Source: an uncultured Pseudomonadota bacterium | GTDB taxonomy: Bacteria; Pseudomonadota; Alphaproteobacteria; UBA9219 | Assembly (NCBI GenBank): GCA_903919315.1 | Contig: CAIXHP010000020.1 | Span: 55,247-119,246, forward strand | Direction: 5' to 3' | Length of the DNA stretch: 64,000 bases | In this document: positions 10,956 through 64,000 of the stretch, one piece after another | How positions within the stretch are numbered: position 1 is the stretch's first letter | How the letters are laid out: each line of letters begins with the position of its first letter | Program-made: the position numbers and the translations under genes | Notes under the pieces: model-generated | Database searches by the model: none | Told to the model about the DNA's origin: nothing | Seen by the model: only the letters and a program-made list of their open reading frames with translations

Positions 10956-12986
10956 TTAAACCGAGCCGCGCGTGGTGTTCTGGATGCGGTCGATGAAGCT
11001 GTCGAGGCTAGAGCGCAGAACTTCCGATTGCTGAGTCAGTTCCTGTGTCGCCGTGTCCATGTTCTGCGCGGCCTGATTGGCATCGACGGCAACACCCTCC
11101 AACCTGCCCACGCCCTCAACCACGACGCGCGTGCTTTCCGAAGCCGTCTGAATGCTGCGGCTGATTTCGCCGGTCGCAGCGGATTGTTCTTCAATCGCCG
11201 CCGAAATGGCGGTGGAAATCTGCATGACTTCCTGAACCGTCTCGGCGATCTCGTTGATAGACCCCACCGCCTCGCGCGTCGCGCCCTGAATTTCGCCGAT
11301 CTGCGACGTGATGTCCTCGGTCGCCTTGGCGGTCTGGTTGGCAAGATTCTTGACCTCGCCCGCCACGACGGCAAAGCCCTTGCCCATTTCGCCCGCGCGT
11401 GCCGCCTCAATGGTGGCGTTCAGCGCCAACAAATTGGTCTGGGTCGCAATATTGTTGATCAGAGTCACGACATCGCCGATTTTCGTCGCGGTTTCCGACA
11501 AATGCGTGACCTGAGCCTTGGTATGTTCCGCCCGTTCAAACGCCTTGCGCGCGACGGAAGCCGCCGTGGAAACGTTGCCGGAAATCTCGCCGATCGAAGC
11601 GGTCAACTCGACCGCCGCCGAAGCGACCGTGCCGATGTTCGAAGCTGCGATCACCGACTGGTTGTTCACCGTCAACACCTGATCACCGGTCTGCTTGGCG
11701 CTGTCGACAACGGTCACGGTGGACTTCTTCAAGACTCCCGCCGCCGCCGTCAAACGACCGACGACAACGCCGACGGCCTGCTCCAACTCGCCCGACAGAG
11801 CCTTAAGCGTCTTCGCTTCATGCGCGCGCAACGTCGCCTGCTGCTGCATCGCCTGTTGCTCGGACTTCGCAATGGTCTTGGTGCGGAAACGATCCAAAGC
11901 ATGAGCGATCTGCGACATTTCGTCATGCCGATCCAGAAACGGAATTTCGACGTTGAGGCCGCCCTCAGCGATCTGATCAATGCCGTCAACCAGCTTGTGA
12001 ATCGCCAGCAACACCGTGCGGGCGAGATAGCGCGAGAACAGCCACGCCGCCAACACAACAAGGAAAGTGACACCGAGGCTAATGTTCAGCTTGTTGGAAA
12101 ACCCGGCAACCCGCACAGTCAAAAGATGATTCAGCGCGTCGCTGCCTGCAGCAAAAAGCTTCCCCGCCTTGTCATGCACCGTCGCATGAACGGATTCGAG
12201 TTCCTTCAGATCGGCCTTACCCGGCTCACCTTCCGAAAACTGAGCCCCCAGTTGATTGACGATCTTCACATACGCGTCCGCCGCTTCCACAAGCTCCGCA
12301 GTGGCCGGATCCAGCTTCGGCTTGAGCGTTCCATCGGGATTTCCGCCCTCGGCCGATTGCACATCGCCCGTCACGCCGCCATAGGCGGCGGCAAACTGCC
12401 CCGCATGGATCAAAAAGCTGGCCTTTTCTTGGGTCGTCAATTGCGATTTGTCATGATACGCGCGCACCATACGCACCAAGGTCGCCGCCTGATCGATGAA
12501 TTCCGGCAACTTCACCGTCAGAAGATCCTGCGTGTAATAGCTGTCCAGATCGGGATCAAGCGTCAGGTTGGATCCGTCCGCCACCTTGCCGACCGTCGTG
12601 CGTGCCAAGGCAATAGCGTCCACAAACGCTTCCTCCGTCCCACCCGAAGCCGGAAGCCCGTCATAGGCCTTTTGCAGCGCCGCCGAAGCTTCGCCGGACT
12701 TCATCGCGGCATCGTACTTCGCCTTGTCGTCCGCCAAATTCTTCGCGCCCTTGACCGCTTCCGGTGCCATCACATGCGACGGCGCGACCGAGCCGCTCAC
12801 CAACCCATGCAGCAACGACCAAGCCGATGATGTCAAATAACTGTTGCCGTCCATCTCCTGCGTCGCGAAATCAATGTCCTTGTTGCTTTGGGCGACCAAA
12901 AGCCAGCCCAACAGCACAATCGGCACCAGAAACAGCATCGACAGAATATCGAGCTTACGGGCAATCGAAAGGTCGCTGATACGCAT
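10956..12986 (-). CDS. Methyl-accepting chemotaxis protein
   Basis: 676 residues from the ATG at 12986 ([16 protein letters not shown]); the track start adds 28 unsupported residues. Membrane segments lie at about 14-33 and 302-320. The periplasmic part contains [11 protein letters not shown], common in a family of proteobacterial receptors with a helical sensor. A HAMP region follows (about 321-375), then a long signalling domain with the hairpin tip [19 protein letters not shown] and the adaptation-type stretch [13 protein letters not shown]. It would feed a CheA-CheW complex, perhaps the one encoded at 57.5-60.6 kb. The ligand is unknown. An exact CtrA-like site lies about 110 bp upstream. 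Confidence 0.93.
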
Positions 12987-13097
12987 ACTCACGGAAAATC
13001 CTATCCGCCCGCTATAGGGGCAAGTCCAATTCAGCCGATCTTCCCAGCCATGGGGAACACCTCGACACACACAGTACGCAGATATGCAACCATTTTG

Positions 13098-13113
13098 GTT
13101 AATTCAAAGTTAA
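13098..13113 (-). promoter_or_regulatory. Putative CtrA-binding box upstream of the chemoreceptor gene
   Basis: On the minus strand the sequence reads TTAACTTTGAATTAAC, an exact fit to TTAA-N7-TTAAC. It lies about 112 bp upstream of the chemoreceptor start. CckA, whose pathway controls CtrA, is encoded in the same window. No clear -35/-10 pair was identified next to it. Confidence 0.5.
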
Positions 13114-24547: not shown

Positions 24548-24928
24548 TTATTTCTTGGTGGCAATCTTCTTGCCAGCGATCGGCTTCGCCGGACCCTTGC
24601 GAGTACGCGCGTTCGTGTGGGTGCGTTGGCCATGCACAGGCAGGCCCTTGCGATGACGCAGCCCGCGATAGCAGCCCAAATCCATCAGGCGCTTGATGTT
24701 CATGGAAACTTCGCGGCGCAGATCGCCCTCGACCTTGTAATTCTTGTCAATGTCCTCGCGGATGCGGAGGAGTTCAGATTCGGTCAGCTGGTTGACCCGC
24801 TTTTCGGGGGCCAGACCGGTACGTTCGCAGATTTCCTGCGAATTTGCCGGGCCAATGCCATAAATGTAACGCAACGCAATGTGCAGCGGCTTTCCCGCCG
24901 GAATGTTGACGCCTGCAATACGGGCCAC
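24548..24928 (-). CDS. rpsM: 30S ribosomal protein S13
   Basis: 126 residues starting at a GTG (24928): [19 protein letters not shown]. The track uses a TTG nine codons upstream, but AAGGAG lies six bases before the GTG and the protein then begins as S13 normally does. The remainder, [15 protein letters not shown] and [21 protein letters not shown], is standard. S13 contacts the P-site tRNA and the B1 intersubunit bridges. It is the first gene of the alpha-type unit and has its own promoter about 215 nt upstream. Confidence 0.96.
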
Positions 24929-25149
24929 GAGGCTCTCCTTCGTTGTTAGCCGCAACGCTCCGGTGCTTGGCGCGACCGTGCTGCGACGTTTGTTTTCGCC
25001 ACGAACTCACCCCATTTCCCGCCAACACAAAAACCACCCGGCTCCCCGAAAGGGCATCCGCGGCGGTCCAATTGGCTGTCTTGAGGGCCGAAACCCCAAA
25101 CACAAGACACAAACAGGGGCTCAGCCCCCTGTCTGGAGCCGAGGAGCGC

Positions 25150-25177
25150 AGTATAGGCAAGCCTCCCCACGAGTCAA
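25150..25177 (-). promoter_or_regulatory. Sigma-70-type promoter of rpsM-rpsK-rpoA-rplQ
   Basis: On the minus strand TTGACT (25172-25177) and TATACT (25150-25155) are separated by 16 bp. This is the best promoter match I saw in the window. It lies after the CheA-like gene stop and about 220 bp before the rpsM GTG. The predicted leader, about 215 nt, includes a 7-bp ACAGGGG/CCCCTGT stem-loop at about 25108-25127. The rest of the 325-bp gap (24929-25253) shows no credible ORF. Confidence 0.7.
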
Positions 25178-25253: not shown

Positions 25254-27023
25254 CTAAACCGCAGCCCGAGCATCCGGCGGAGTCGGCCCGGTAAGGGTGG
25301 CAATATCAAGGCAATAAGGGATACGAATATCAAAACTCGCCCCCTTGTAAAGCTCCGATGTCACCCGAATGGTGCCGCCGAGCTTCCGCACCTCCTGCTC
25401 CACCACCTCCATGCCGACTCCTCGGCCCGACATGGTGGTTAATTTTTCGCTTGTAGAAAAACCCCACGAAAAAATACGCTGGATCACGGTCTGATCGTCT
25501 TCAAGACGCCACGCGCCATCGGGATCGCTCGCCGCCAGCTTGGCGCGAACGCGCGAGGGGTCGATTCCATTTCCGTCGTCGCTGATAACGATGCGCAAAA
25601 TTTTGCCGTCCCCAGATTCGGCAGAAACAATCTCAGTTTCAACGATCACCTGCCCTGCCGGATCTTTGCCGCGCGCCATGCGCGTAACGGGCGGCTCGAT
25701 GCCGTGATCCATGATATTTCGCGCAACGTGCGTCAGCGAGAACAGAAATTCCTGCATGGACTGGGTCAAAACGCGCGGGTTGCTGCCGCTGAACTTCACC
25801 GGCTTGATCTGCTTGTCCACCACGCTCGTCAGCTCTTGCAAACTGCGCTCGAAAGAATGGAAACAGTCGCGAACAGGCACGGCGGCAATAGCGCTTAGAT
25901 AATGCTGGATCAACGCCGGTTCAATTCCGCGCTTGTGCATCATCCGCGCAAAGTCGTAGAGCGAGTCTTCGTCGATCTCGCGAACATTGCCGCGCCATTC
26001 GTGTTCGCCGCCGAGAAGTTCGCTCACCTCGTCCGTAACCGTCAAAAGGGCGGCGGCGATTCGCGTACGCCCGGCATCCAGCCGCGCACGAAACTCCGCG
26101 TCCACTTCGGCTTCGGGCCCACGCAGATCATTTTCCACTTCGTGAAGAATTTGCGCCAACTCGACCAGATTGAAGTGCCGTACGGTCGCCTTCAGCGTAT
26201 GCAGCTGACGCAGCAACGCCGCGCTGTTCTTGACTCCGACCGTCCGCGTTCCGGCTTCGTTAAGGAAGACCCGCAAATGCGCCAATGTCGCCCGAAACTG
26301 GTTACGCTCCTTAAAGATACGGCAAATCATTTCCGCAAAGGCTTGCTGCCTGAGGGCGTTCTGCTGGGCTTCTTGTTCCTCCGTCTGATCCGTCGCGATC
26401 AGAACAACGCTAAACAATTCACCGTTCTTGCCGTAAATCGGGCGGTACACAAGCGTGACATGCCGCTTTTGGCTATGCGGAAATTGCTGCGGCAAAAACT
26501 TGACGACATCGTCGAATCCCAAGGCATGATCCGGCTGGAAAAGCACGTTGAGCCACTCCAGAAAATCAGCGCGCCCCTCGTCGGGCGTCCCCAAAACATC
26601 GGCGATATGCCTGTCGGCCGGAATGGTTTCCAGCAGTTCGAGGCATGCCTGCGAATAAACCTTGCCGCACACGCCCGTGGAGTCGAAAACCAGGAAGCCC
26701 TGCCCCAAGCTGTTGACAAGAACTTCCGTCAAACGAGCCTGATCCGCCACATGGCGATGGACGCGAAAGTTCAGGATGTAGAGGCCGCCGATACCGACGA
26801 ACGCCGCCACAACCATGACGCCCCACGCCATCAGATGGGTCACGGGAGCGTAGCCGAACACCGGTAAAGCCGTCGCGCCCAACAGCATCAGAACAATCGC
26901 CGTCATCCCCGCCAGCGAAGTGTGGATGATATCGACGTGCCGTACGGTCTCGGTAAGAACGGCCTCGCTCAGCGCTGACTTCGGAGACGGCGAGATGTCG
27001 TCGCTGGAGGAGGCAGTGGACAT
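25254..27023 (-). CDS. Membrane-bound CheA-like histidine kinase (TM-PAS-HPt-ATPase)
   Basis: 589 residues from the ATG at 27023; the track uses a TTG at 27047 overlapping the upstream stop. Two membrane helices lie near residues 38-85. A PAS region follows (VNSLGQGFLVFDS), then a long helical HPt region whose phosphoacceptor is probably the His of LHTLKATVRHF, and a CheA-type ATPase with NIMDHGIEPP (N box), ISDDGNGIDP and TMSGRGVGMEVV. It lacks the CheW-like P5 domain, so it is not a classic CheA. With the preceding CheX and CheY-like genes it forms a signalling cassette between adk and rpsM. The stimulus is unknown. Confidence 0.82.
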   Translation of the reverse strand: MSTASSSDDISPSPKSALSEAVLTETVRHVDIIHTSLAGMTAIVLMLLGATALPVFGYAPVTHLMAWGVMVVAAFVGIGGLYILNFRVHRHVADQARLTEVLVNSLGQGFLVFDSTGVCGKVYSQACLELLETIPADRHIADVLGTPDEGRADFLEWLNVLFQPDHALGFDDVVKFLPQQFPHSQKRHVTLVYRPIYGKNGELFSVVLIATDQTEEQEAQQNALRQQAFAEMICRIFKERNQFRATLAHLRVFLNEAGTRTVGVKNSAALLRQLHTLKATVRHFNLVELAQILHEVENDLRGPEAEVDAEFRARLDAGRTRIAAALLTVTDEVSELLGGEHEWRGNVREIDEDSLYDFARMMHKRGIEPALIQHYLSAIAAVPVRDCFHSFERSLQELTSVVDKQIKPVKFSGSNPRVLTQSMQEFLFSLTHVARNIMDHGIEPPVTRMARGKDPAGQVIVETEIVSAESGDGKILRIVISDDGNGIDPSRVRAKLAASDPDGAWRLEDDQTVIQRIFSWGFSTSEKLTTMSGRGVGMEVVEQEVRKLGGTIRVTSELYKGASFDIRIPYCLDIATLTGPTPPDARAAV

Positions 27024-27043
27024 AGCGGCCCGATTCTGTTGCT

Positions 27044-27562
27044 TCAATTCAATTTGTTATCGTTCTGGTTGGCATAAAGGGCGACGTGCACCTGAAACAA
27101 CTGGCCATCCAGATAAAAAGGAATAATCATATAACGGCCCCGGTGAAACTGGCAGACGAAATGCCCCCGCCCGGTCACAACGCTCGGAATGCCGAGCCGC
27201 AAGCTATAGCCGCGCCCGTTCAACTCCGTCTTGATTTGGCCGAAAATCATGTTGGTGATTTCGCCAACGGCATCAACGGCCATCTCGTGAGTCACGGAAA
27301 CCGAGTGGCCGATGATCTGCGGCAAAATGTCACGCACCGTCTCAAACGTCAGGCACAAAGTCAGCGTGCCCTCCAGCTGATTTTGCACCATGCCGATCAC
27401 GCCGGAGACATCGCCAACGAGAGACACCATGCCTTCGCCGACCTCATAGTCGCCAGGAACGACGCTGACGGCGAACGTGTCGCGCATGGCGGAACAAACC
27501 GCCGACGAAATTTCCTTTGAAAGCGTCTCGTCAAGAGCGAGATGCTGCGGTACCTGTGCCAT
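27044..27562 (-). CDS. cheX: CheX-family chemotaxis phosphatase
   Basis: 172 residues. The CheC/CheX signature is seen as VDAVGEITNMIFGQIKTEL (E-x2-N catalytic pair), followed by LGIPSVVTGRGHFV and a C-terminal strand pair ending LDGQLFQVHVAL. CheX dephosphorylates CheY-P. It lies 48 bp after a CheY-like gene and just before the membrane kinase gene, so the three may form a complete phospho-signalling loop: kinase, regulator and phosphatase. The family assignment is firm; its role in chemotaxis rather than another output is inference. Confidence 0.85.
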   Translation of the reverse strand: MAQVPQHLALDETLSKEISSAVCSAMRDTFAVSVVPGDYEVGEGMVSLVGDVSGVIGMVQNQLEGTLTLCLTFETVRDILPQIIGHSVSVTHEMAVDAVGEITNMIFGQIKTELNGRGYSLRLGIPSVVTGRGHFVCQFHRGRYMIIPFYLDGQLFQVHVALYANQNDNKLN

Positions 27563-27610
27563 GTACTATCCCCCGCTCTGCAAAACCAAAAAGCAGTACC
27601 AAACCATCGG

Positions 27611-28051
27611 TCAAACGCGCCCGGCCTGCTGACCCGTCTGCCGCTTACGCTTGATCCACTCGTAAATTTCGAACAGCTTCTTGCTCAGATCGCCCGGCGA
27701 TACCGGCTTGATGATATAGGACGTAGCCCCGGCCTTAATCGCCTTCATGATGTTCTGCTGTTCCGACTCGGCCGTCAACATGACGAAGGCGGTGTCGGTA
27801 TACTCGCTCTTGGCGCGAAAATAACTCAGCACCTCAAGCCCCGATATGGTCGGCATATTCCAGTCTAGAAAGACAATGTCATAGGGCTGCGTCGCCTCGC
27901 GCGCCTTTTGAACAAGGTCAATCGCCTCGTTACCGTCAGCCGCCGTCTGAATGTCGTTAATTTTTGCGTCCTGCAACGTGTTGCGGACAAACTGACGAAC
28001 CAAAAAATGGTCATCGGCGACGAGAACCTTGAGTTGCGACAGTTGACTCAC
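27611..28051 (-). CDS. CheY-like single-domain response regulator
   Basis: 146 residues from a GTG at 28051, chosen because GGGAG lies about seven bases upstream; the track ORF extends 44 unsupported residues further. It has the acidic pair VADDHFLVRQ, the phosphoacceptor FLDWNMPTISG, the Thr in VMLTAES and the Lys in YIIKPVS. There is no output domain, so it would signal by protein contact, as CheY does. It lies downstream of adk (225-bp gap) and upstream of cheX. Confidence 0.88.
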   Translation of the reverse strand: MSQLSQLKVLVADDHFLVRQFVRNTLQDAKINDIQTAADGNEAIDLVQKAREATQPYDIVFLDWNMPTISGLEVLSYFRAKSEYTDTAFVMLTAESEQQNIMKAIKAGATSYIIKPVSPGDLSKKLFEIYEWIKRKRQTGQQAGRV

Positions 28052-28276
28052 GTTTTTTCTCCCATCCAGATACTCGCCGAAACCAGTTGCCCGCCCTTCC
28101 CGGATAGGAAGTGTGGCGGTTTCGGGCCTAACCCCGCAACCCGAACCGTGGAAGTTGCATACTTCCAGCAGGATCTTTCGCATAAATTTCTTGCCGTATC
28201 GTTAAGATGCTCCCGAGCCGCAGCGAGAGCAAGAGAAGACATTTATTCGGCTAGAACAACGACGCAAACAGGCGGT

Positions 28277-28930
28277 TCAGACAACCAACCCCAAAGCGCC
28301 CTCAAGCGCCCGAAACACGTCCGGCATAGGAGCCATGCCGTCGACAGCCTTAAGCACACCACGCGCGGCGTAATAAGGAAGAATGGGCGCGGTCTCGTCG
28401 CGATAGGCCTTGAGCCTCGTCTTCATAGCTTCGGCATTGTCGTCGGCGCGGCGGCTGAAATCCGTTCCGGCGCATTGATCACACACGCCGGGCGCGCGTG
28501 TCGGTTTAAAACGGTCATGATAGCCCTCACCGCACTTGGCGCAGGTGAAGCGGCCCGCCACGCGCTCCACCAACTTGCCCTCATCAACCTTTAGCTCAAC
28601 AACGGCATCCAACTTGCTGTTAACATTCAGCAACATCTTGTCGAGAGCCTGAGCCTGAGGAATCGTGCGCGGAAAGCCGTCCAAAATAAAGCCTTTGGCG
28701 CAGTCGGGCTGGGCGATTCGCTCCGAAATCAAACGAATCATCAACTCGTCCGGCACCAAGGCGCCGCGATCCATGATCGCCTTAGCTTCCTGTCCCAGCG
28801 GTTCGCCCTTGCGAACGGCTGCACGCAGCATGTCGCCGGTGGAAAGTTGGACAAGGCCGTATTTTTCTTCGAGCTGACGCGCCTGAGTCCCCTTACCGGC
28901 TCCCGGCGGCCCCAACAGAATGATGTTCAT
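28277..28930 (-). CDS. adk: Adenylate kinase
   Basis: 217 residues from the ATG at 28930 (MNIILLGPPGAGKGTQ); the track start adds 11 residues from the secY overlap region. It has the P-loop GPPGAGKGTQ, FILDGFPRT and a LID with four cysteines (CAKC...CDQC), the zinc-stabilised type. It interconverts ATP+AMP and 2 ADP. The gene starts 19 bp after the secY stop. The next genes on the strand are signalling genes, not infA or rpsM as is common. Confidence 0.96.
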   Translation of the reverse strand: MNIILLGPPGAGKGTQARQLEEKYGLVQLSTGDMLRAAVRKGEPLGQEAKAIMDRGALVPDELMIRLISERIAQPDCAKGFILDGFPRTIPQAQALDKMLLNVNSKLDAVVELKVDEGKLVERVAGRFTCAKCGEGYHDRFKPTRAPGVCDQCAGTDFSRRADDNAEAMKTRLKAYRDETAPILPYYAARGVLKAVDGMAPMPDVFRALEGALGLVV

Positions 28931-28949
28931 GCGCCTGCCCTCTTCGGAA

Positions 28950-30296
28950 TTACCGCCCGCCACGCAGCTTCGATTTTTTGATGAGTCCCTCGTACTGATG
29001 CGCGATCAGATGCGATTGAACCCTTGAGATCGTGTCAATCGTCACGCTCACTACGATCAACAGCGACGTGCCGCCAAGGTAGAAAGGAATCGCGGCGCTT
29101 TGCTTCATCAAGATTTCCGGCAGCAAGCAGATAACAACCAGATAGGCCGCCCCAACAACCGTAAGGCGCGACAGCACATAGTCGAAATAATCAGCCGTGT
29201 TCTTACCGGGACGAATGCCGGGAACAAAGCCGCCATATTTCTTGAGATTATCCGCCGTTTCAACCGGATTGAACACAACCGCCGTGTAGAAGAACGAAAA
29301 GAAGGTAATCAGCGCGGCATACAGCACCATAAACAAAGGCTTGCCATGCCCCAGCGCCGTCACAATATCCGCCAGAATCCCGCCCTTTTGCTGCACATCG
29401 GTAAAGCTGGCCATCGTCAACGGAAACAGCAGGAGCGAACTGGCAAAAATCGGCGGAATAACGCCGGACGTGTTCAGCTTGAGCGGAAGATGCGAAGCCT
29501 CGCCGCCATAGATCTTGTTGCCGACTTGACGCTTCGGATAGTTGACGAGAATGCGCCGTTGCGCCCGTTCGCAATACACGCAAACCGCGAGAACGACGAC
29601 GATCAAGGCAACGATGAACAGGATAAACCACGGCGACAAAGCCCCCGTGCGCCCCTGCTCCAACGTCTGAACCATCGCGTGCGGCAAGTTAGCGACAATG
29701 CCCGAATAGATGATCAGCGACGTGCCGTTGCCGATGCCGCGCGCCGTAATCTGCTCGCCGAGCCACATCAGAAACACCGTGCCGCCCGTCAAGGTAATCA
29801 CCGTGATGATTCGAAAGAACGGCCCCGGCGCAACAACCGGAGAATTGCCCCCCGACATCATATTTTCAAGTCCGACCGCCATGCCATAGGATTGGACGAT
29901 AGCAAACAAAACGGTGAGATAACGCGAATATTGGTTGAGACGAACGCGCCCGGCCTCGCCTTCCTTCTTCATCGCCTCAAAGCTCGGCACGATTGCCGAC
30001 AAAAGCTGAACGATGATCGAAGCGGTAATATAGGGCATGACGCTCAACGCAAAGATCGTCATACGCTTCAAAGCGCCGCCGGAAAACATGTCGAACATGC
30101 CAAGGATGCCGCCGCCATGCTGCTTAAAAAGCTCACCCAATGACACAGGGTCGATGCCCGGCACGGGGATGTAAGTGCCGAGACGGAAAACAATCAAAGC
30201 CATCAACGTGAACCAGATGCGGCTTTTCAGTTCCGTCGCCTTGCCAAAGGCGGACATATTGATGCTGGAGGCGAGCGTTTCTGCAGGTGAGGCCAT
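28950..30296 (-). CDS. secY: Protein translocase subunit SecY
   Basis: 448 residues with ten membrane segments, starting with ELKSRIWFTLMALIVFRLGTYIP and including GMFDMFSGGALKRMTIFALSVMPYI and the cytosolic loop YPKRQVGNKIYGG. SecY is the channel of the Sec translocon. It is separated from rplO by 318 bp containing a terminator, a REP-like palindrome and a promoter, so secY-adk can be transcribed separately from the spc ribosomal genes. Confidence 0.97.
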   Translation of the reverse strand: MASPAETLASSINMSAFGKATELKSRIWFTLMALIVFRLGTYIPVPGIDPVSLGELFKQHGGGILGMFDMFSGGALKRMTIFALSVMPYITASIIVQLLSAIVPSFEAMKKEGEAGRVRLNQYSRYLTVLFAIVQSYGMAVGLENMMSGGNSPVVAPGPFFRIITVITLTGGTVFLMWLGEQITARGIGNGTSLIIYSGIVANLPHAMVQTLEQGRTGALSPWFILFIVALIVVVLAVCVYCERAQRRILVNYPKRQVGNKIYGGEASHLPLKLNTSGVIPPIFASSLLLFPLTMASFTDVQQKGGILADIVTALGHGKPLFMVLYAALITFFSFFYTAVVFNPVETADNLKKYGGFVPGIRPGKNTADYFDYVLSRLTVVGAAYLVVICLLPEILMKQSAAIPFYLGGTSLLIVVSVTIDTISRVQSHLIAHQYEGLIKKSKLRGGR

Positions 30297-30485: not shown

Positions 30486-30546
30486 ATATTTTGAATCCAT
30501 TGAGAGCGTCACGGAATCGGCCGAATCACACAACCAATCGCAGGAC

Positions 30547-30584
30547 AAAAAAATTGCCCCGTTCGGGAATGAACGGGGCAATTT
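30547..30584 (-). terminator. Rho-independent terminator after rplO
   Basis: A perfect 14-bp stem AAATTGCCCCGTTC / GAACGGGGCAATTT with a 6-nt loop, followed on the minus strand by seven T residues. It lies 30 bp past the rplO stop and upstream of secY, so it ends the S10-spc transcript before secY. Confidence 0.92.
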
Positions 30585-30614
30585 GAAATCACCGTAAAAC
30601 GCGCAAAAAACGCA

Positions 30615-31097
30615 TCAGGCCGCTTCGGTCGTCTCCACGTTCGCCGTGAGGGTCACCTTGCCGCCCGCCTTTTCAATCGCGGCGATGGCCGAGGCCGAAG
30701 CTCCGGCCACGGTCAAAGCAACCTTGACCTTGATCTCGCCCTTGCCGAGCAAGCGCACGCCGTCTTTCGACTTTGTGACGACACCGGTTTCCAAAAGCAT
30801 GGCTTCCGTGATCGGCTTCTTGGCATCCAAACGGCCCGCCTCGATGGCCTGCTGCAAACGGCCCACGTTCAGCTCGGCATAATCCATCGGGAACATCGTC
30901 TTAAAGCCACGCTTCGGCAAACGGCGATGCAACGGCATCTGGCCGCCTTCAAAGCCACGGATCGAAACGCCCGTACGCGCTTTCTGACCCTTTACGCCGC
31001 GACCGCAGGTTTTGCCCTTGCCTGAGCCAATACCGCGACCGACCGACATCGGCTTCTTGCGAGCGCCTTCGTTATCGCGCAAATCGTTAAGTTTCAT
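30615..31097 (-). CDS. rplO: 50S ribosomal protein L15
   Basis: 160 residues. The N-terminus [28 protein letters not shown] and the Gly/Arg-rich [15 protein letters not shown] stretch are typical of L15, with the [17 protein letters not shown] signature. It is an early-assembly large-subunit protein. It is the last gene before the strong terminator, so it closes the main ribosomal transcript. rpmD lies 41 bp upstream. Confidence 0.97.
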
Positions 31098-54086: not shown

Positions 54087-55021
54087 CGCTAGCCAGAACG
54101 AACGAACGCGCCGCCTCCCCGCAGCGTAGAACGAGCCAAGGCTTCACCCTCATCGAAATGGCGATGGTGCTGGTGATCGTCGGACTGGTGATCATGATCG
54201 TCTTCCCCGCCCTCTACGCCGTGCGCCTCAGCACCCAGCGAAGCGTGACCGAAGCGAACCTCCAAGCCCTCCTCCGCGCCACCGCCGTATACGCGCAAGC
54301 CAACGGCTGCCTGCCCTGCCCGACTCCTGCACTCCGCTCCGGCCCCGGCTTCGGCGTTGTGCGTGGAGACTCCCCACCAACTCCCGCCTGTGGAGACTGC
54401 TCGCGTCCCGAAGGCATCGCCCCCTTCGCCTCGCTCGGACTTCCCGCTGCGATGGCACATGACGGTTGGGGACGCTGGATCACGATGCGGATCGACCCGA
54501 CCTTGGCCAACCCGCCCAACCTGACCGTCCCGCCCACGGCAGCCTGCCGCTGCGAAGACTTTCCCCCCGCCAAACTTCCCCAAGGCTGCACAACCGCTGG
54601 CACCGTCGACACCGGCTGCACAGCGCTCGGCCTCAGCCAAAAAGGCCTATGCAGCGTCGGACCAAGCAACACCAGCAATATGGTGAAGGTCAGAACCATC
54701 GGCGGAAACACGCAATACGCCGCCGCAATCTTCGTCAGCCACGGCCCGAATGGATCAGGAGCCTACATCGCAGGCCCGATAGCCACCGGTAATAACGGCA
54801 ATCGCCTCCCCTTCCGCGCCACGCCACCATGCAGCGCGACTGGAGGTTTTGAGTCCTGCAACGCCAAATCCAGCCCCAGCCTCGGCGACATCTTCTTCAA
54901 CGCGCCGCCCTCCGGCAACACGGCGGATCCCTATGACGACCTTCTTCTTTTCATGGATCGCAACAACATCGTCAGCCTGCTCGGCAACGGCAGTTGCCAG
55001 ACGAGTTGGGGAGCGCCCTAA
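54083..55021 (+). CDS. Type IV prepilin-like protein 2, cysteine-rich
   Basis: 312 residues from a GTG at 54083 that overlaps the preceding stop; the track start is in a different upstream context. The cleavage site is SQGFTLIEMAMVLVIV. The globular part has many cysteines (NGCLPCPTP, ACGDCSRP, CRCEDF and others), more than usual for a pilin, so several disulphides are likely. The gene ends 4 bp inside the convergent cheR. It is probably a minor pilin or tip-type protein of the same fibre as the preceding gene. Confidence 0.82.
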   Translation: MTLARTNERAASPQRRTSQGFTLIEMAMVLVIVGLVIMIVFPALYAVRLSTQRSVTEANLQALLRATAVYAQANGCLPCPTPALRSGPGFGVVRGDSPPTPACGDCSRPEGIAPFASLGLPAAMAHDGWGRWITMRIDPTLANPPNLTVPPTAACRCEDFPPAKLPQGCTTAGTVDTGCTALGLSQKGLCSVGPSNTSNMVKVRTIGGNTQYAAAIFVSHGPNGSGAYIAGPIATGNNGNRLPFRATPPCSATGGFESCNAKSSPSLGDIFFNAPPSGNTADPYDDLLLFMDRNNIVSLLGNGSCQTSWGAP

Positions 55022-55887
55022 ACGGTCGCCGCCTGAAAAGGCGCAGGAGGCACCGGCGCTGTCGCCCCCGTCCGTCCCGTCAAAACATACAAACCGCGCT
55101 CATTCTCCAACGGCTTGAACTTTTCCGTCACGCCGAGAACCGTCTCGGCCCCACCCAGAAACAGCGTGCCGTCCGGAGTCAGCACCTTGCTGATGGCCTC
55201 AAGAACACGCGTCTTGGTAGGCTGGTCAAAATAGATCAGCACGTTACGGCAATAGACGATGTCGAACGTGCCGATGGGGCCAAAGTCGGTCAGCAGGTTG
55301 CCCTCGCGGAACTGCACCATCTGGCGGATGTTGTCCTTGACCTGCCAACGGTCGGTGCCGACCTGCTGGAAATACTTGACCAGAAACGTCACCGGCAACC
55401 CGCGTTGCACTTCGAATTGCGAGTAAATGCCGCTCTTGGCGCGCTCCACCATCTCGGCGGACAAGTCGGTGCCGAAAATATCGACCTTCCAGCCCTGCAG
55501 CTTGGCCGCTTCCTCGTTCAGAATGATCGCCAGCGAATAGGCCTCTTGCCCGCTCGATGCCGCCGCCGACCAGATGCGAATTTGCCGCTTGGCCGCCCGC
55601 GATTTCAGCAACTGCGGCAACAAGACCTGCCGGAACTGATCGAAAGGCTTTTGGTCGCGAAAGAAAAAGGACTCGTTGGTGGTCATCGCCTCGGTAATGT
55701 CGCGCAGCATGGTTTCGTCGCGCTTGGCGCGAACCGACTGAGCCAAATCATCCAGCGTCTTTAAATTCCATTTCCGCGCCACCGGAGTCAGGCGCGATTC
55801 GAGCAAATAGGCCTTGTCGCGGGTCAGCACCAAGCCCGAACGCTGCTTGACCAACACCGAGAAAAGATCGAAGTCCTCAGGCTTCAT
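55018..55887 (-). CDS. cheR: Chemotaxis protein methyltransferase CheR
   Basis: 289 residues from the ATG at 55887 (MKPEDFDLFSVLVKQRSG). It has the N-terminal helical domain, then ITEAMTTNESFFFRDQKPFDQF, the SAM site RIWSAAASSGQEAYSLA and NVLIYFDQPTK. CheR methylates glutamates of chemoreceptors. Its ATG overlaps the cheB stop by four bases. It is the last gene of the che operon and converges with the second pilin gene. Confidence 0.94.
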   Translation of the reverse strand: MKPEDFDLFSVLVKQRSGLVLTRDKAYLLESRLTPVARKWNLKTLDDLAQSVRAKRDETMLRDITEAMTTNESFFFRDQKPFDQFRQVLLPQLLKSRAAKRQIRIWSAAASSGQEAYSLAIILNEEAAKLQGWKVDIFGTDLSAEMVERAKSGIYSQFEVQRGLPVTFLVKYFQQVGTDRWQVKDNIRQMVQFREGNLLTDFGPIGTFDIVYCRNVLIYFDQPTKTRVLEAISKVLTPDGTLFLGGAETVLGVTEKFKPLENERGLYVLTGRTGATAPVPPAPFQAATV

Positions 55888-57086
55888 AGTCGCCTCATGG
55901 CGGTCTGGCGCACAAGGCCGCCAATTTCGCCTACAGGCAGCACGGCCGAACAAAGCCCCGCGTTCGCGACCGAACCGGGCATCCCCCACACCACGCTGCT
56001 GGCCTCGTCCTGAGCGATGACCGAGCCGCCAGCCTTGACGACCACGTCGCAGCCCTTCGTCCCGTCCTGCCCCATGCCGGTCAGAATAACCGCCAAAATG
56101 CGCTTACCATAGGCCGCCGCAAGCGTCCGCAACATAGGATCGACGGCGGGACGGCAGAAATTCTCTTGCGGATCTTTGGTCAAACGAATGGTCGGCCCCG
56201 CCGCGCGGTTTTCGATGAGCATGTGGAAATCGCCAGGCGCGACATAATACCGCCGCGCTTGAAGCGTTTCGCCGTCCTTGGCCTCCGCGCAATTGACCTG
56301 ACACTGCTTGCTGATGTGTTCGGCCAAAATGGCCGTAAAAGACGGCGGCATGTGCTGGGTAATCACGACCGGCTGAGCCAGATCGCCGCCCATGTCCTTA
56401 ACCACGCGGAACAGAGCCTGCGGCCCTCCGGTCGAGCTGCCGATGGCGATCACATCGGGATGGACGAGCGCTTCGCGGCGCAGAACGACTTCTTTTTTGA
56501 CGGCGGGCGCAGGCGTAAACGGACGCGGCGCAGCGGACGGGCGCATGGTCGTCGACGTGGCATCGCGCGACGGAGGATAAGGCACCCGCGCATGCGCCGT
56601 CGAAACGCGCACGCCGGAACGGCGGGCCAGAGCGCCCAACGCTTTCACCTTGCCCACCAGCTCGCGCCGGAAATCATCGGCCGTCCCGGCCATCTCGCGG
56701 CTGGTGCTCGGCTTGGGAATATAATCGGTCGCGCCGAGCGACATGGCGCGCAAGCTGATCTCGGCGTTCTTTTGCGTCAGCGTCGAAGCCATGATGACCT
56801 GCACCGCACCATCAATGGCCTTCAGCTTGGGCAACGCCGTCAGCCCGTCCATGACCGGCATTTCGATGTCGAGAACGATAACATCCACCGGCTCGTTCTG
56901 AAGCGACTTGATGGCCATCTCGCCGTTGCAAAGCGATGCCGCGACCCGCAAGGAAGGATCCCCTTCCAACACACGCGCAATCGCGCCGCGAATGACGGCC
57001 GAGTCATCGACGATCATAACGCGGTAAACGTCCGTGCTATCGTTTGACGGAACATCGCCGCCGCGCGTCGTGCTAAAACTGGACAT
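55884..57086 (-). CDS. cheB: Chemoreceptor glutamate methylesterase CheB
   Basis: 400 residues from the ATG at 57086; the track uses a TTG three codons upstream. An N-terminal receiver domain has MIVDDSAVIRG and VIVLDIEMPVMDG. A linker of about 60 residues follows, then the esterase with the catalytic Ser in IGSSTGGPQAL, His in THQ-like TQHMPPSFT and Asp in LTGMGQDGTKG. It demethylates or deamidates receptors. It lies 15 bp after cheY and overlaps cheR. Confidence 0.95.
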   Translation of the reverse strand: MSSFSTTRGGDVPSNDSTDVYRVMIVDDSAVIRGAIARVLEGDPSLRVAASLCNGEMAIKSLQNEPVDVIVLDIEMPVMDGLTALPKLKAIDGAVQVIMASTLTQKNAEISLRAMSLGATDYIPKPSTSREMAGTADDFRRELVGKVKALGALARRSGVRVSTAHARVPYPPSRDATSTTMRPSAAPRPFTPAPAVKKEVVLRREALVHPDVIAIGSSTGGPQALFRVVKDMGGDLAQPVVITQHMPPSFTAILAEHISKQCQVNCAEAKDGETLQARRYYVAPGDFHMLIENRAAGPTIRLTKDPQENFCRPAVDPMLRTLAAAYGKRILAVILTGMGQDGTKGCDVVVKAGGSVIAQDEASSVVWGMPGSVANAGLCSAVLPVGEIGGLVRQTAMRRL

Positions 57087-57101
57087 AATCACCAACAGTC
57101 A

Positions 57102-57473
57102 TCAGGCTTCAATCACGCCAAGCTGGCTTAGCTTGCTACGCACAATATCCGCGTCAAAGGGTTTCATGATGTATTCGTTCGCGCCGGAGGTCAACGCTTC
57201 TTGAATGTGGTTAAGATCGTTCTCCGTGGTGCAAAAAACCACGACGGGAGTCTGGCCGCCCGGCTCTCGGCGCAGCGCGCGCAGAAATTCGATGCCGTTC
57301 ATCACCGGCATGTTCCAGTCAAGCAGGATCACATCAGGCATCTTTTTCAGGCAAGCGGCATGAGCCACCTTCCCGTCCTCAGCCTCTTCGCAGGAAAATC
57401 CGAGCGTGTCAAAAATCTGGCGCGCCACTTTGCGGATGACGCGGCTATCGTCAACGATCAAACAAGATTTCAT
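57102..57473 (-). CDS. cheY: Chemotaxis response regulator CheY
   Basis: 123 residues, a single receiver domain: CLIVDDSRVIRKV (acidic pair), ILLDWNMPVMNG (phosphoacceptor Asp), VFCTTEND (Thr) and IMKPFD (Lys). CheY-P binds the flagellar switch. It lies between cheW and cheB in a five-gene operon. No cheZ is present; the CheX at 27 kb could be the phosphatase acting on this protein, but that is inference. Confidence 0.94.
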   Translation of the reverse strand: MKSCLIVDDSRVIRKVARQIFDTLGFSCEEAEDGKVAHAACLKKMPDVILLDWNMPVMNGIEFLRALRREPGGQTPVVVFCTTENDLNHIQEALTSGANEYIMKPFDADIVRSKLSQLGVIEA

Positions 57474-57504
57474 GAAAGCCTCGACTCATTCGCGCGCACA
57501 CTCA

Positions 57505-57999
57505 TCACGCCGCCACGGCGGCTTCAAGCCGCAGCAGGCGCTGCACGTCCAAAATAATCAACAGCGAATCCTTAAGGCGGTAAATGCCGTCCGAAACCTC
57601 GCGCCAACGTTCGTCGAGCGTCGAGGGGTTCTTTTCGTAATCGGCGGCGGGAAGGCTCATGACCTCGCCGACCTGATCCACGATCAGACTGTAAAACTCG
57701 CCGCCGTGATCGGCCACAATGCTCATATCCTTGCCGCCGTCGCGCGGCGGAAGGCCGAGGCGCACCCGAACGTCGATGGCCGTCACGATGCGCCCGCGCA
57801 GATTGAGCGACCCGGCAACCTCCGGCGGAGCCAACGGCACGCGCGTGATCTTTTGCGGCCCCAGCACGTCCTGAACCTGCAACACGGGAATGCCGAACAT
57901 TTGCCCGGCAATGAACATCGTGACGAATTCGCGGCTCGCCACCTCCGCCACGGCGGCAGGAAGTTTGTTCGTCGCTTTGGTCGGGAGATTGTCGGTCAT
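57505..57999 (-). CDS. cheW: Chemotaxis adaptor protein CheW
   Basis: 164 residues with the CheW fold: EFVTMFIAGQMFGIPVLQVQDVL, the VPLAPPEVAGSLNLRGRIVTAIDVR signature and DQVGEVMSLP. It couples receptors to CheA. Its start overlaps the cheA stop by four bases (57996-57999), so translation is coupled. It lies 31 bp upstream of cheY. Confidence 0.95.
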   Translation of the reverse strand: MTDNLPTKATNKLPAAVAEVASREFVTMFIAGQMFGIPVLQVQDVLGPQKITRVPLAPPEVAGSLNLRGRIVTAIDVRVRLGLPPRDGGKDMSIVADHGGEFYSLIVDQVGEVMSLPAADYEKNPSTLDERWREVSDGIYRLKDSLLIILDVQRLLRLEAAVAA

Positions 58000-60632
58000 G
58001 CGCTCACCTTTACGCTACTGAGGGTCTGCTGCAAAGTGGCCAGAAGAGCCTCGCGGTTAAACTTGGCCACATAATCGGTAAAGCCGACCATGCGCCCGCG
58101 CTCGATGTCGCGCGGAGTCGCATGCGAGGAAAGGGCGATAAAGGGAACGCCGCTCCACAGTCCGCCTTCGCGCCGCACGGCGGCGGCAAAGTCGAACCCG
58201 TTCATGCCGGGCATTTCAATGTCGCTGACGATCACGTCAAACACCGAGCCTTCTTCCTGCAGCTTGAGCGCGTCGGCCGCGTTGTCCGCCGTCGTGACGG
58301 TGTATCCGGCCACCGTCAACAACGGCGCCAAAAGATTACGGAAGAACGGGCTGTCGTCGACCAAAAGGACGCGGTGCAGGCTGTCTTCGCCGAACGCGCC
58401 CTCCTGCTCCTTCCCGAACCAGTCCTGATAAGCCTGTGCCAGATAATGGCCGGTATCGATAACGTCCGTCGCCTTGCCCACGACAATGGCGCTGCCGAGG
58501 AAACCGGGACGCTGCGCCGACAAATCGACGTTGATCCGGTCTTCGACGATGTCGATAATCTCATCGACGATCAGCCCCATGCTGCGTTCCTGATCGCTGA
58601 ACACCAGAATGGGCTGGGTTCCCTCGCCCGCCATCTTGGCATCGACATCGATCGACACGAGCGGCATGAGCTTGCCGCGATACTGCACCACGGGCTTGTT
58701 GTCGGAATACTCGACGGTCTTACGGTCGATTTCCTCCAGACGCGCGACCAGCGACAGCGGCACGGCCTTGGGCGCGGCGCCACAGGCCCGGAACAGCAAT
58801 AACGACTGCTTGCCGTCCGTACGTCCCTGAGCCTGACGCGCGTTTTGTTTGGCCGCCGACGACTCGGCGGCGTGAATCTCGCCGACGCGCGTCGCGACGC
58901 CGTTGGGATCCAAAATCATGACGACGCTTCCGTCGCCCAAGATGGTGTTGCCCGAGAACAGCTCGATATGCCGCAAAATCGGCGACACGGGCTTGACGAC
59001 GATTTCCTCGGTGTCGAACACGCGATCAACGATAATGCCAAAATTCGCGCTTCCCACCTGAATGACCACGATAAAGGCCGTGTCCGCGCTGTCTTTGTCT
59101 TCGCCAAGCTTCAAAGTGCGGCGCAACGACACCAGCGGCAGCAAGCGATTGCGCAACCGTAGAACCGGCGTGTTGTTGATGCGTTCGACGTGATACTCGC
59201 TGTGCGCCGAAGCATGAACCAACTCGACGACGCAGATTTGCGGAATGGCGAAACGCTCGCCCGCGCATTCGACGATCAACGCCGAGACAATGGCCAACGT
59301 CAACGGAATCTTGATGAGGAACCGCGACCCCTTGCCTTCGGTCGATTGCAAATCAACCGTGCCGCCGATTTTCTCGATGTTGGTCTTCACGACATCCATG
59401 CCGACGCCGCGCCCCGACACGGCGGTGACCTTGGTCGCCGTCGAGAATCCGGGCTTAAAAATGAATTGCATGATCTGCTGATCGGTCATGTTCGCCAGAT
59501 CGGCCTCGGTCGCCAACCCGCTCTGCACCGCCTTGGTTTTGATGCGCGAGATCGCGAGTCCCTTGCCGTCGTCGGAAACTTCGATGACGATATGGCCGCC
59601 TTCGTGATAGGCGTTGAGCAGGATCGTGCCGGTTTCCTGCTTGCCCGCCTGCATGCGATCCGCCGGAACCTCGATGCCGTGATCCGCCGAATTGCGCACC
59701 ATGTGCGTCAAGGGATCCTTGATAAGCTCCAACACCTGCCGATCCAGCTCGGTTTCCGCGCCGACCATTTGCAAATTGATCTTTTTGCCGAGTTCAAGCG
59801 ACAGATCGCGCACGACGCGCGGCAGTTTGGACCACGCGTTGCCGATAGGCTGCATGCGCGTCTTCATCACGCCTTCCTGAAGCTCCGACGTGACGTGGTT
59901 GAGGCGCTGCAACGGCGTGGCAAAGGCGCTGTCCTTCTGGCTGCGCAAAATCTGCATCAACTGGTTGCGAGTCAAAACCAGCTCGCTGGCGATAACCATC
60001 AGGTTTTCCAGCTGATCCACGCTGACGCGGATGGACTGGCTGGCGACGGCGGACTCTTTCGTGCCAAGTTCTTCCATAGGCTTAACCTCCTGCTTCTTGG
60101 CATCGGGCGCAGGCGCAGACGCAGTCTGCGCCTTGCCGGTCTCCGACGCAGGAACGGGAACAAAGCCGTGTTCGTCCGGGACGTTCGCGGGGAAAACGGG
60201 AGCATCGTCCATATGTACCTCCTTAGGCGCGGATACCGTCGCCACATGATCAAGATGACCCTCAGCCATAGCATTCAGCTCGGCGATCAACTCCTCGTCA
60301 TTGCCGGGAGCTTCGGCCTGCGTGGCTTCCAAAACCGCCAGCAGTGTCTTAATGGTGTCGATGGATTTCAGAATCAAACTGACGGCCAGCGGAGTCACCG
60401 GCAGTTCGCCGTCGCGGAATTTTCCCAGAACATTCTCGCCCGCATGCGCCAAATGCTCAAGGCGCGGCAAGCCCAAAAAGCCGCAGGTTCCCTTGATCGT
60501 ATGCACCAATCGGAAAATGCTGCTCAACAGCTCAGGATTGTTGGGATTCTGCTCCAACTTCACCAGTTCGACATCGATTTGAGCGATGCTCTCGGAAGTT
60601 TCGGTCAGAAATTCACGCAGCAAGTCATCCAT
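57996..60632 (-). CDS. cheA: Chemotaxis histidine kinase CheA, hybrid form
   Basis: 878 residues. HPt domain with RLVHTIKGTCGF (His44), a long Pro/Ala-rich linker without an obvious P2 domain, dimer domain (SVDQLENLMVIASELVL), ATPase (MVRNSADHGIEVP, SGRGVGMDVV), a CheW-like domain, then a second CheW-like region (about 615-745) and a C-terminal receiver domain (about 752-870; RVLLVDDSP, IVSDIEMPGMNG). It phosphorylates CheY and CheB. The start is preceded by GAAGGAC. It heads the cheA-W-Y-B-R operon. Confidence 0.95.
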   Translation of the reverse strand: MDDLLREFLTETSESIAQIDVELVKLEQNPNNPELLSSIFRLVHTIKGTCGFLGLPRLEHLAHAGENVLGKFRDGELPVTPLAVSLILKSIDTIKTLLAVLEATQAEAPGNDEELIAELNAMAEGHLDHVATVSAPKEVHMDDAPVFPANVPDEHGFVPVPASETGKAQTASAPAPDAKKQEVKPMEELGTKESAVASQSIRVSVDQLENLMVIASELVLTRNQLMQILRSQKDSAFATPLQRLNHVTSELQEGVMKTRMQPIGNAWSKLPRVVRDLSLELGKKINLQMVGAETELDRQVLELIKDPLTHMVRNSADHGIEVPADRMQAGKQETGTILLNAYHEGGHIVIEVSDDGKGLAISRIKTKAVQSGLATEADLANMTDQQIMQFIFKPGFSTATKVTAVSGRGVGMDVVKTNIEKIGGTVDLQSTEGKGSRFLIKIPLTLAIVSALIVECAGERFAIPQICVVELVHASAHSEYHVERINNTPVLRLRNRLLPLVSLRRTLKLGEDKDSADTAFIVVIQVGSANFGIIVDRVFDTEEIVVKPVSPILRHIELFSGNTILGDGSVVMILDPNGVATRVGEIHAAESSAAKQNARQAQGRTDGKQSLLLFRACGAAPKAVPLSLVARLEEIDRKTVEYSDNKPVVQYRGKLMPLVSIDVDAKMAGEGTQPILVFSDQERSMGLIVDEIIDIVEDRINVDLSAQRPGFLGSAIVVGKATDVIDTGHYLAQAYQDWFGKEQEGAFGEDSLHRVLLVDDSPFFRNLLAPLLTVAGYTVTTADNAADALKLQEEGSVFDVIVSDIEMPGMNGFDFAAAVRREGGLWSGVPFIALSSHATPRDIERGRMVGFTDYVAKFNREALLATLQQTLSSVKVSA

Positions 60633-62569: not shown

Positions 62570-63590
62570 TGGATTCACGTTTGAAGTGCAACGGTTGAAC
62601 ACAGGTTGGAGAATACTTCTGCAGGGGTTTTGAAGCCAAGACATTTTCGTGGAGTGTTGTTGTGGCGATCGGCGATGGCTCTGAGGGCTTGGGGCGATAG
62701 GGAAGAAAGATCCATGCGGCGCGGCAAATCCTTTTGCAATCTGCCGTTCATGTTTTCGATGCCGCCTTTTTCCCAAGGATGATGTGGCCGGCAGAAAAAG
62801 GTTTTCAAGCCAAGGCTGTCACGCAATCTGTAGTGCTCGGCAAACTCTGTGCCGTTGTCCTGTGTCAGGGTTCTGCGCATCTGCGGATGAAGAGGCTTGA
62901 GCCAAGTTTTCAGTCGAGAAGCCGTCGTGGAAGCCTTGCGAGACGGCGGTTTACCGAGCCGTATGAAACGGGATTTCCGCTCTTGCGCAACCAGAATGGA
63001 TTGTCCATAGCGGCTGAAAAGGATGCAATCGGTTTCCCAGTGTCCCGGCTGTTTGCGTTTATGGATGAAAGAAGGTCTTTTCTCAATGGAAACGCGGTAT
63101 TTTATATGTTGAACCGGCGTGCCGCCTCGTTTTCCGAGACGGCCTCGACGATGCTTTTTTCGAGGCAACAAGCGATGCCAGTAATCCTTTTGGGCGCTGC
63201 GATGATAGGCGTAGCGATAAATGGATTCATAACTGACACTCATGGTAGGATGGTTTTGCGTCAGCCATGCTGAGATTTGTTCGGGCGACCATCCCATCGC
63301 AAGTTTGTTTCGCACGAGCCGTCGCAGTTTTGGTTGGCGCGCCATTTTAAAGCGCCCGTCCCATCGCCGCCGACGCTGGGTCAAGGCTTCGGCCCGTAAG
63401 GGATCATAGCCTTCTTTCCACCGCTTCGTTTTCTTGCTGTTTCGCTTCAATTCCCGACTTATTGTGCTGGGCTGACGGCCTAAAGCTTCGCCAATCCAGC
63501 GCAAGGATTTACCATTGGCATGCCAATGGTAAATCTTTACCCGTTCCTTTGCAGAAAGCTGGTTGTATTTGTTTCCCCTCGCAACACCGT
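62570..63590 (-). mobile_element. IS30-family insertion sequence (approximate limits)
   Basis: The transposase gene fills almost the whole element, about 1.0 kb. The left limit is set by the end of a REP palindrome just before the transposase stop. The right limit is where PyrD similarity ends, near codon 138 of that reading frame. I could not identify convincing terminal inverted repeats or a target duplication by eye, so limits are plus or minus about 20 bp. Confidence 0.65.
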
Positions 63591-63612
63591 TCCAAGCAAA
63601 ACAAATAATCAT
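62575..63612 (-). CDS. IS30-family transposase
   Basis: About 345 residues. An N-terminal helix-turn-helix ([15 protein letters not shown]... [14 protein letters not shown]), then the DDE core: GHWETDCI (first Asp), [13 protein letters not shown] (second Asp) and [14 protein letters not shown] (Glu). These are diagnostic of IS30. The ORF track carries it 60 residues further by reading into pyrD. The only in-frame ATG (63612) seems to lie in pyrD sequence, so the native start is unclear or the 5' end may be slightly truncated. Confidence 0.88.
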
Positions 63613-64000
63613 CAATCGTGTTTTGTTCCGAAGTCTTCGCGTTCTTCCCGATGCTGATCCCAAGCCCCCCCCGCCGCTGGGAAGCGCGAACGTTTTGAAC
63701 CAGCCAATCCACCCCCCGATTGTTAAAGCCAAAGCGGTTGATAAGGGCCTGATGCGCCACAAGCCGGAACATCCTCGGCCTTGGGTTCCCATCCTGAGGC
63801 AAGGGCGTTACGGTGCCGATTTCAAGAAAACCAAACCCCAAACTTGATAAGGCGTCGATAGAGTCGCCGTTCTTATCCAGCCCCGCTGCAAGACCGATCC
63901 GATTGGAGAACTTCAACCCCCACAACGTGACTTCGTCTTTGTGCGGAGGATAAAGCTTGCCGAGCATGCCCGTCTTATCCAGCAACCGCAGCGATGCCAT
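63586..64000 (-). pseudogene. pyrD: Dihydroorotate dehydrogenase fragment, truncated by the IS element
   Basis: The frame runs to the window edge, and the start is beyond it. It is the N-terminal part of class 2 Pyr[62 protein letters not shown] and GISIGKN. Similarity stops after DDYLFCLER, where IS30 sequence begins. The following catalytic half (NxSSPNT and the C-terminal FMN site) is absent on the other side of the element, which is metA-proximal DNA. So this copy should be inactive for pyrimidine synthesis. Confidence 0.85.

Follow-up and report, generated by a model that had tools for sequence, protein, structure and literature searches.

A CheA-like membrane kinase encoded with CheX and a CheY-type regulator at the adk-rpsM junction in an alphaproteobacterial order

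What are three chemotaxis-type genes doing inside a cluster of ribosomal protein genes, and do they form a signalling system of their own? We addressed this question in a 64,000-nt stretch of DNA (the window) from an uncultured Pseudomonadota bacterium (Alphaproteobacteria; UBA9219), positions 55,247-119,246 of the forward strand of contig CAIXHP010000020.1 in assembly GCA_903919315.1. The relatives surveyed were 32 genomes of the same alphaproteobacterial order, which is known here mostly from draft genomes, in three families (f1, f2 and f3); the class was sampled with 386 genomes.

The locus and its three predicted proteins

A first-pass annotation had placed three signalling genes between adk and rpsM, and their reading frames, order, strand and coordinates were all borne out. 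The main features of the junction are:

28950-30296, minus strand: secY
28277-28963, minus strand: adk, end of the spc-type operon and upstream neighbour (Pfam ADK, 6.4e-56)
27611-28051, minus strand: RR, single-domain CheY-like response regulator, 146 aa, GTG start (Pfam Response_reg, 3.4e-27)
27044-27562, minus strand: cheX, predicted CheX-type phosphatase, 172 aa (Pfam CheX, 4.8e-16)
25254-27023, minus strand: CheA-like membrane kinase, ATG start (Pfam Hpt, 5.7e-6; HATPase_c, 7.8e-15)
24548-24931, minus strand: rpsM, start of the alpha operon and downstream neighbour (Pfam Ribosomal_S13, 3e-31)

Read along the minus strand, the genes run secY, adk, RR, cheX, kinase, rpsM, rpsK, rpoA, rplQ. 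The kinase reading frame opens at 27047 with TTG, the ATG start chosen gives the coordinates listed. In the loci of the order the gaps among RR, cheX and the kinase gene are mostly 0-70 bp, an operon-like spacing. Elsewhere in the window the suhB/mmgR sRNA family was matched below its threshold (27.4 bits; gathering score 41) between rplO and secY (30540-30620, minus strand), and there is an IS30-like transposase with HTH_38 and rve domains (62575-63792, minus strand).

The RR is nearest in sequence to CheY, it has no output domain and carries the DD, D, T and K residues of a CheY-type single-domain regulator. Its active site (D13, D14, D63, T93, K115) was invariant in the 20 orthologues compared. 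Identity to the orthologues is 70-85% in f1 and f3 and 53-55% in f2, and across the order the RR is more conserved than CheX or the kinase. In CheX the catalytic E-x-x-N (E101-x-x-N104) is invariant among orthologues, the profile matches solved CheX-type structures (2.3e-26), and the predicted model (pLDDT 87) has the CheX fold. The protein is most likely a phosphatase resetting the RR, as predicted from these features.

The kinase combines two transmembrane (TM) helices, a PAS-like domain, an HPt domain and a CheA P4-type ATPase domain. The HPt histidine, H275, is invariant, and Pfam Hpt, the mark of the CheA P1 domain, was matched by 20 of 21 kinase orthologues. The N, G1 and G2 boxes of the ATPase are kept, and the catalytic motifs are intact and conserved in all three cassette proteins. 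CheA P4 structures were the best matches of the ATPase domain, by sequence and by fold, with about 30-34% identity to the solved Thermotoga P4. P3 (H-kinase_dim) was matched by none of the 21 orthologues, and Pfam found no P5/CheW domain in the window kinase or in the orthologues checked (n=21); both domains are present in the canonical CheA of the window. P3 and P5 are two of the four core domains of CheA (PMC10782961). Because they are missing, we class the kinase, on its domain composition, as CheA-like and not as CheA, and it should therefore not dock into chemoreceptor arrays. The first-pass annotation had thus been right that a CheW-like domain is absent, and its suggestion that the kinase may work without arrays gains support.

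Across the order the TM helices are conserved, and they flank a loop with a largely conserved LPVFG; as this loop has only about ten residues, there is no periplasmic sensor domain. The TM, HPt and ATPase parts of the layout proposed earlier were confirmed, but for its PAS domain the window kinase gave no Pfam match. This label rests on the AlphaFold2 model, in which an alpha/beta domain at about residues 108-212 is compatible with PAS, and on a weak match to PAS_4 in one of the 21 orthologues.

Insertion, inheritance and expression

In 23 of 24 other alphaproteobacterial genomes used as outgroup, adk directly adjoins rpsM, with gaps of 24-797 bp, which agrees with the earlier remark that rpsM is among the usual successors of adk. 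On this gene-order evidence the cassette was inserted where the spc-type operon meets the alpha operon, an event that took place in the ancestor of the order.

The adk-RR-cheX-kinase-rpsM order proved not to be specific to one assembly, and the RR-cheX-kinase unit is found order-wide. Judged by its CheX orthologue, the cassette is present in 28 of the 32 relatives, in all three families and in every genome that is at least 90% complete; the four relatives without a CheX orthologue are 69-89% complete. Gene order was surveyed in 29 genomes, the source genome counted in; RR-cheX-kinase was identical in all of them. Two of the loci run off the end of their contig (L039, L044), and in L059 the kinase is frameshifted. 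Both flanks are kept in 12 of the 29, three of which have an MFS gene after adk. Six keep only the rpsM side, four only the adk side (one of them truncated at a contig end, another joined across contigs by inference), six keep neither and one was undecidable. The cassette has thus moved out of the ribosomal cluster in several relatives, and across the loci of the order it has no constant partner gene. In the kinase tree f1, f2 and f3 each form a single clade, as expected from vertical descent, which suggests that the cassette was inherited vertically within the order. Only seven of the 386 class genomes matched the CheX profile, five of them members of the order; outside the order the unit is almost missing from this sample. 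Near the gammaproteobacterial CheX matches (L077-L094) there is no kinase. The cassette is a real, conserved and little-described variant of CheA-like signalling.

The first-pass annotation saw no clear promoter of the cassette's own and proposed a growth-state sensor co-expressed with secY-adk in the ribosomal cluster. The location between adk and rpsM in the 12 genomes is in keeping with this proposal, as is the result of our consensus promoter scan, in which no sigma70-like hexamer pair in the adk-RR gap was better than shuffles. Alignment then showed a strongly conserved 31-bp element in this gap, so the remark about the promoter holds only as far as sigma70 is concerned. The control sites of the locus are:

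28176-28206, minus strand: conserved 31-bp element CTTAACGATACGGCAAGAAATTTATGCGAAA, 124 bp upstream of the start of RR, a candidate for controlling the cassette
25150-25177, minus strand: TTGACT-N16-TATACT, a promoter-like site for the alpha operon (rpsM), past the end of the cassette
24896-24990, minus strand: Alpha_RBS, the S4-binding leader before rpsM (Rfam RF00140, 43.7 bits, gathering score 38)

The element has the consensus YTTAACCATRCGGCAA-N4-TTTRTGSCAA and lies 47-173 bp upstream of the RR across loci. It was found in 26 of the 28 testable loci of the order, each scoring above all 300 shuffles with a leave-one-out matrix. Of the 12 loci that lack a neighbouring adk, 10 retain the element, as do the three genomes in which the MFS transporter gene, on the opposite strand, separates adk from the RR. 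The element therefore belongs to the cassette, which appears, from this retention, to be a transcription unit of its own. In sequence it is unlike a sigma70 promoter; it would be either a promoter or a regulator site of the cassette.

Search of the source genome and the 32 order genomes yielded no second conserved site, the other matches being isolated. The source genome has one other match with fewer than three mismatches. A one-mismatch copy inside the kinase gene (26311, plus strand) is probably a coincidence of coding sequence, the matches at L138 and L150 look incidental, and the one at L134 is the same cassette locus cut by a contig end.

Downstream of the cassette, 13 of 18 kinase-rpsM gaps in the order carry hexamers near-identical to those of the rpsM promoter-like site, with unchanged spacing, a pattern that shuffles seldom reproduce; the Alpha_RBS leader was also found in L045 and L057. 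With a promoter-like site and a leader of its own, rpsM is probably expressed independently of the cassette. A GC-rich hairpin (25110-25135, minus strand) lies just past the -10 of this site, where the leader RNA presumably begins; it may be a cassette terminator or a leader structure. The separate rpsM signals, the private element that persists with adk elsewhere or behind an MFS gene, and the relocated loci do not support expression following secY-adk or a coupling to growth state, and we regard the growth-state sensor as highly improbable.

Chemotaxis, motility and a proposed mechanism

The window also holds a canonical che cluster, CheR-CheB-CheY-CheW-CheA (55018-60632, minus strand):

55018-55989, minus strand: CheR
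55884-57095, minus strand: CheB
57102-57473, minus strand: CheY
57505-57999, minus strand: CheW
57996-60632, minus strand: CheA, with two CheW-like stretches and a C-terminal receiver domain

At the cassette in the window neither CheW nor an MCP was matched, dedicated array components are not encoded there, and by gene content the cassette is a second system, separate from the che cluster. The sole TTAA-N7-TTAA (CtrA-like) box of the window, at 13099-13113, lies about 30 bp upstream of an MCP gene (ORF 10956-13070).

The reading that we consider reasonably probable, on sequence evidence, is that of a self-contained CheA-like phosphosignalling module, independent of receptor arrays, in which a membrane kinase acts on the RR, CheX is the eraser, the flagellar motor switch is a plausible target and expression comes from an upstream region of its own. 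It builds on the observed gene content, motifs, conservation, insertion, conserved element and separate promoter-like site before rpsM. The membrane-anchored kinase would receive its signal by way of the two TM helices, the cytoplasmic PAS-like domain or both, presumably as a dimer, and H275 would be autophosphorylated by the CheA-type ATPase domain. The phosphate would then pass from H275 to D63 of the RR, and be stripped from it by CheX. The RR would act through contact with another protein, the most plausible one being the motor switch, which is found in every high-quality genome of the order. The operon would have been inserted between adk and rpsM in the order's ancestor and be expressed from its own upstream region. 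FliG was found in 21 of 21 good genomes; FliM seems to be absent from G030, which has FliG, and this is probably an assembly gap. It must be noted that the che cluster has a CheY of its own, thus the cassette RR need not address the motor.

It is possible, though we hold it to be rather unlikely, that the cassette is instead an accessory branch of canonical chemotaxis, with CheX also dephosphorylating the che-cluster CheY and the membrane kinase providing a second input to the same motor. The source genome, which has this full che cluster, eight MCP matches, FliM and FliG, has a single CheX. Moreover G002, alone among the good genomes of the order in having no matches to CheW domains and MCPs, has its cassette (L059, 4270-9423) relocated beside an ftsZ-like gene, with the kinase frameshifted and the upstream element missing. 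This co-occurrence hints at a link between cassette and motility, but it is carried by one genome, whose frameshift may be an assembly error. For the same two defects we dropped G002 as an example of an array-less genome that keeps the cassette. The kinase, however, has no array-docking domain, and the two CheY proteins are only 28% identical, so one phosphatase may not serve both.

Slightly less probable still, in our judgement, is a role outside motility (cell cycle, surface attachment or growth), in which the RR would bind a non-flagellar partner. The unusual conservation of the RR would fit such a role, and so would the TTAA-N7-(G/T)CAA of the element, which we take to resemble a CtrA site only in part. 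Yet the nearest known relatives are CheY and CheX, and a constantly linked partner gene is lacking.

Kinases of the chemotaxis type usually rely on CheW and separate receptors. A CheA-like kinase that brings its own anchor and input domain and has a dedicated CheY/CheX pair, as in the module that we favour, would show the chemotaxis pathway running as a plain two-component system. The cassette offers a defined three-gene unit for testing receptor-free CheA-like signalling, and a shared genomic marker for the order.

Comparison with known systems

It is worthwhile to compare the cassette with RR-CheX-FIST-kinase cassettes found at L067 (4434-8275) and L069 (172-3346), which are paralogous cassettes in G020 and G031, and at L096 (5288-9301), from an alphaproteobacterium outside the order. 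As in the order's unit, RR and CheX are followed by a homologous PAS-like/HPt/P4 kinase; in contrast to it, a soluble kinase stands beside a FIST sensor protein, whereas the order's cassette has TM helices and no FIST gene. At L068 (G017) RR, CheX and kinase occur without an adjacent FIST gene. The kinases of these four loci form a separate clade neighbouring the order's kinases, and those within the order have no TM helices. The source genome has no FIST protein. The open-access papers searched contained no report of CheX with FIST, nor of this adk-rpsM insertion. Our reading of these relationships is that a FIST-type module may have given rise to the order's unit, rather than the reverse. 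A wider proposal, which we put forward only tentatively, is an order-wide core pathway: such a module would have lost FIST and acquired the membrane anchor, and its kinase would now act directly on the motor, or on some other target of CheY, with no need of chemoreceptors, CheW or arrays.

The gammaproteobacterial Algicola (L036) has the same gene set as the order's cassette; unlike the order's kinase, its homologue (28% identity) is fused to a further CheX domain, beside RR and CheX genes, and this fusion links the functions of RR, CheX and kinase. Like CheA (HPK9 type), the cassette kinase has an HPt (P1) domain with a phospho-acceptor His, a P4-type ATPase and a CheY-like partner, but CheA has P3 and P5/CheW, whereas the cassette kinase has neither and carries its own TM helices and PAS-like input domain. 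With the CheX phosphatases of Thermotoga, Borrelia and others with solved structures, the cassette CheX shares the Pfam CheX family, the E-x-x-N and the fold; the known ones are encoded in array-type che operons, the cassette CheX together with a membrane kinase. A further parallel is the Borrelia set CheA2-CheX-CheY3, in which CheX reportedly acts as a CheY phosphatase beside a CheA, much as it would beside the CheA-like kinase of the cassette; CheA2 is a canonical CheA with array domains, unlike the membrane kinase described here.
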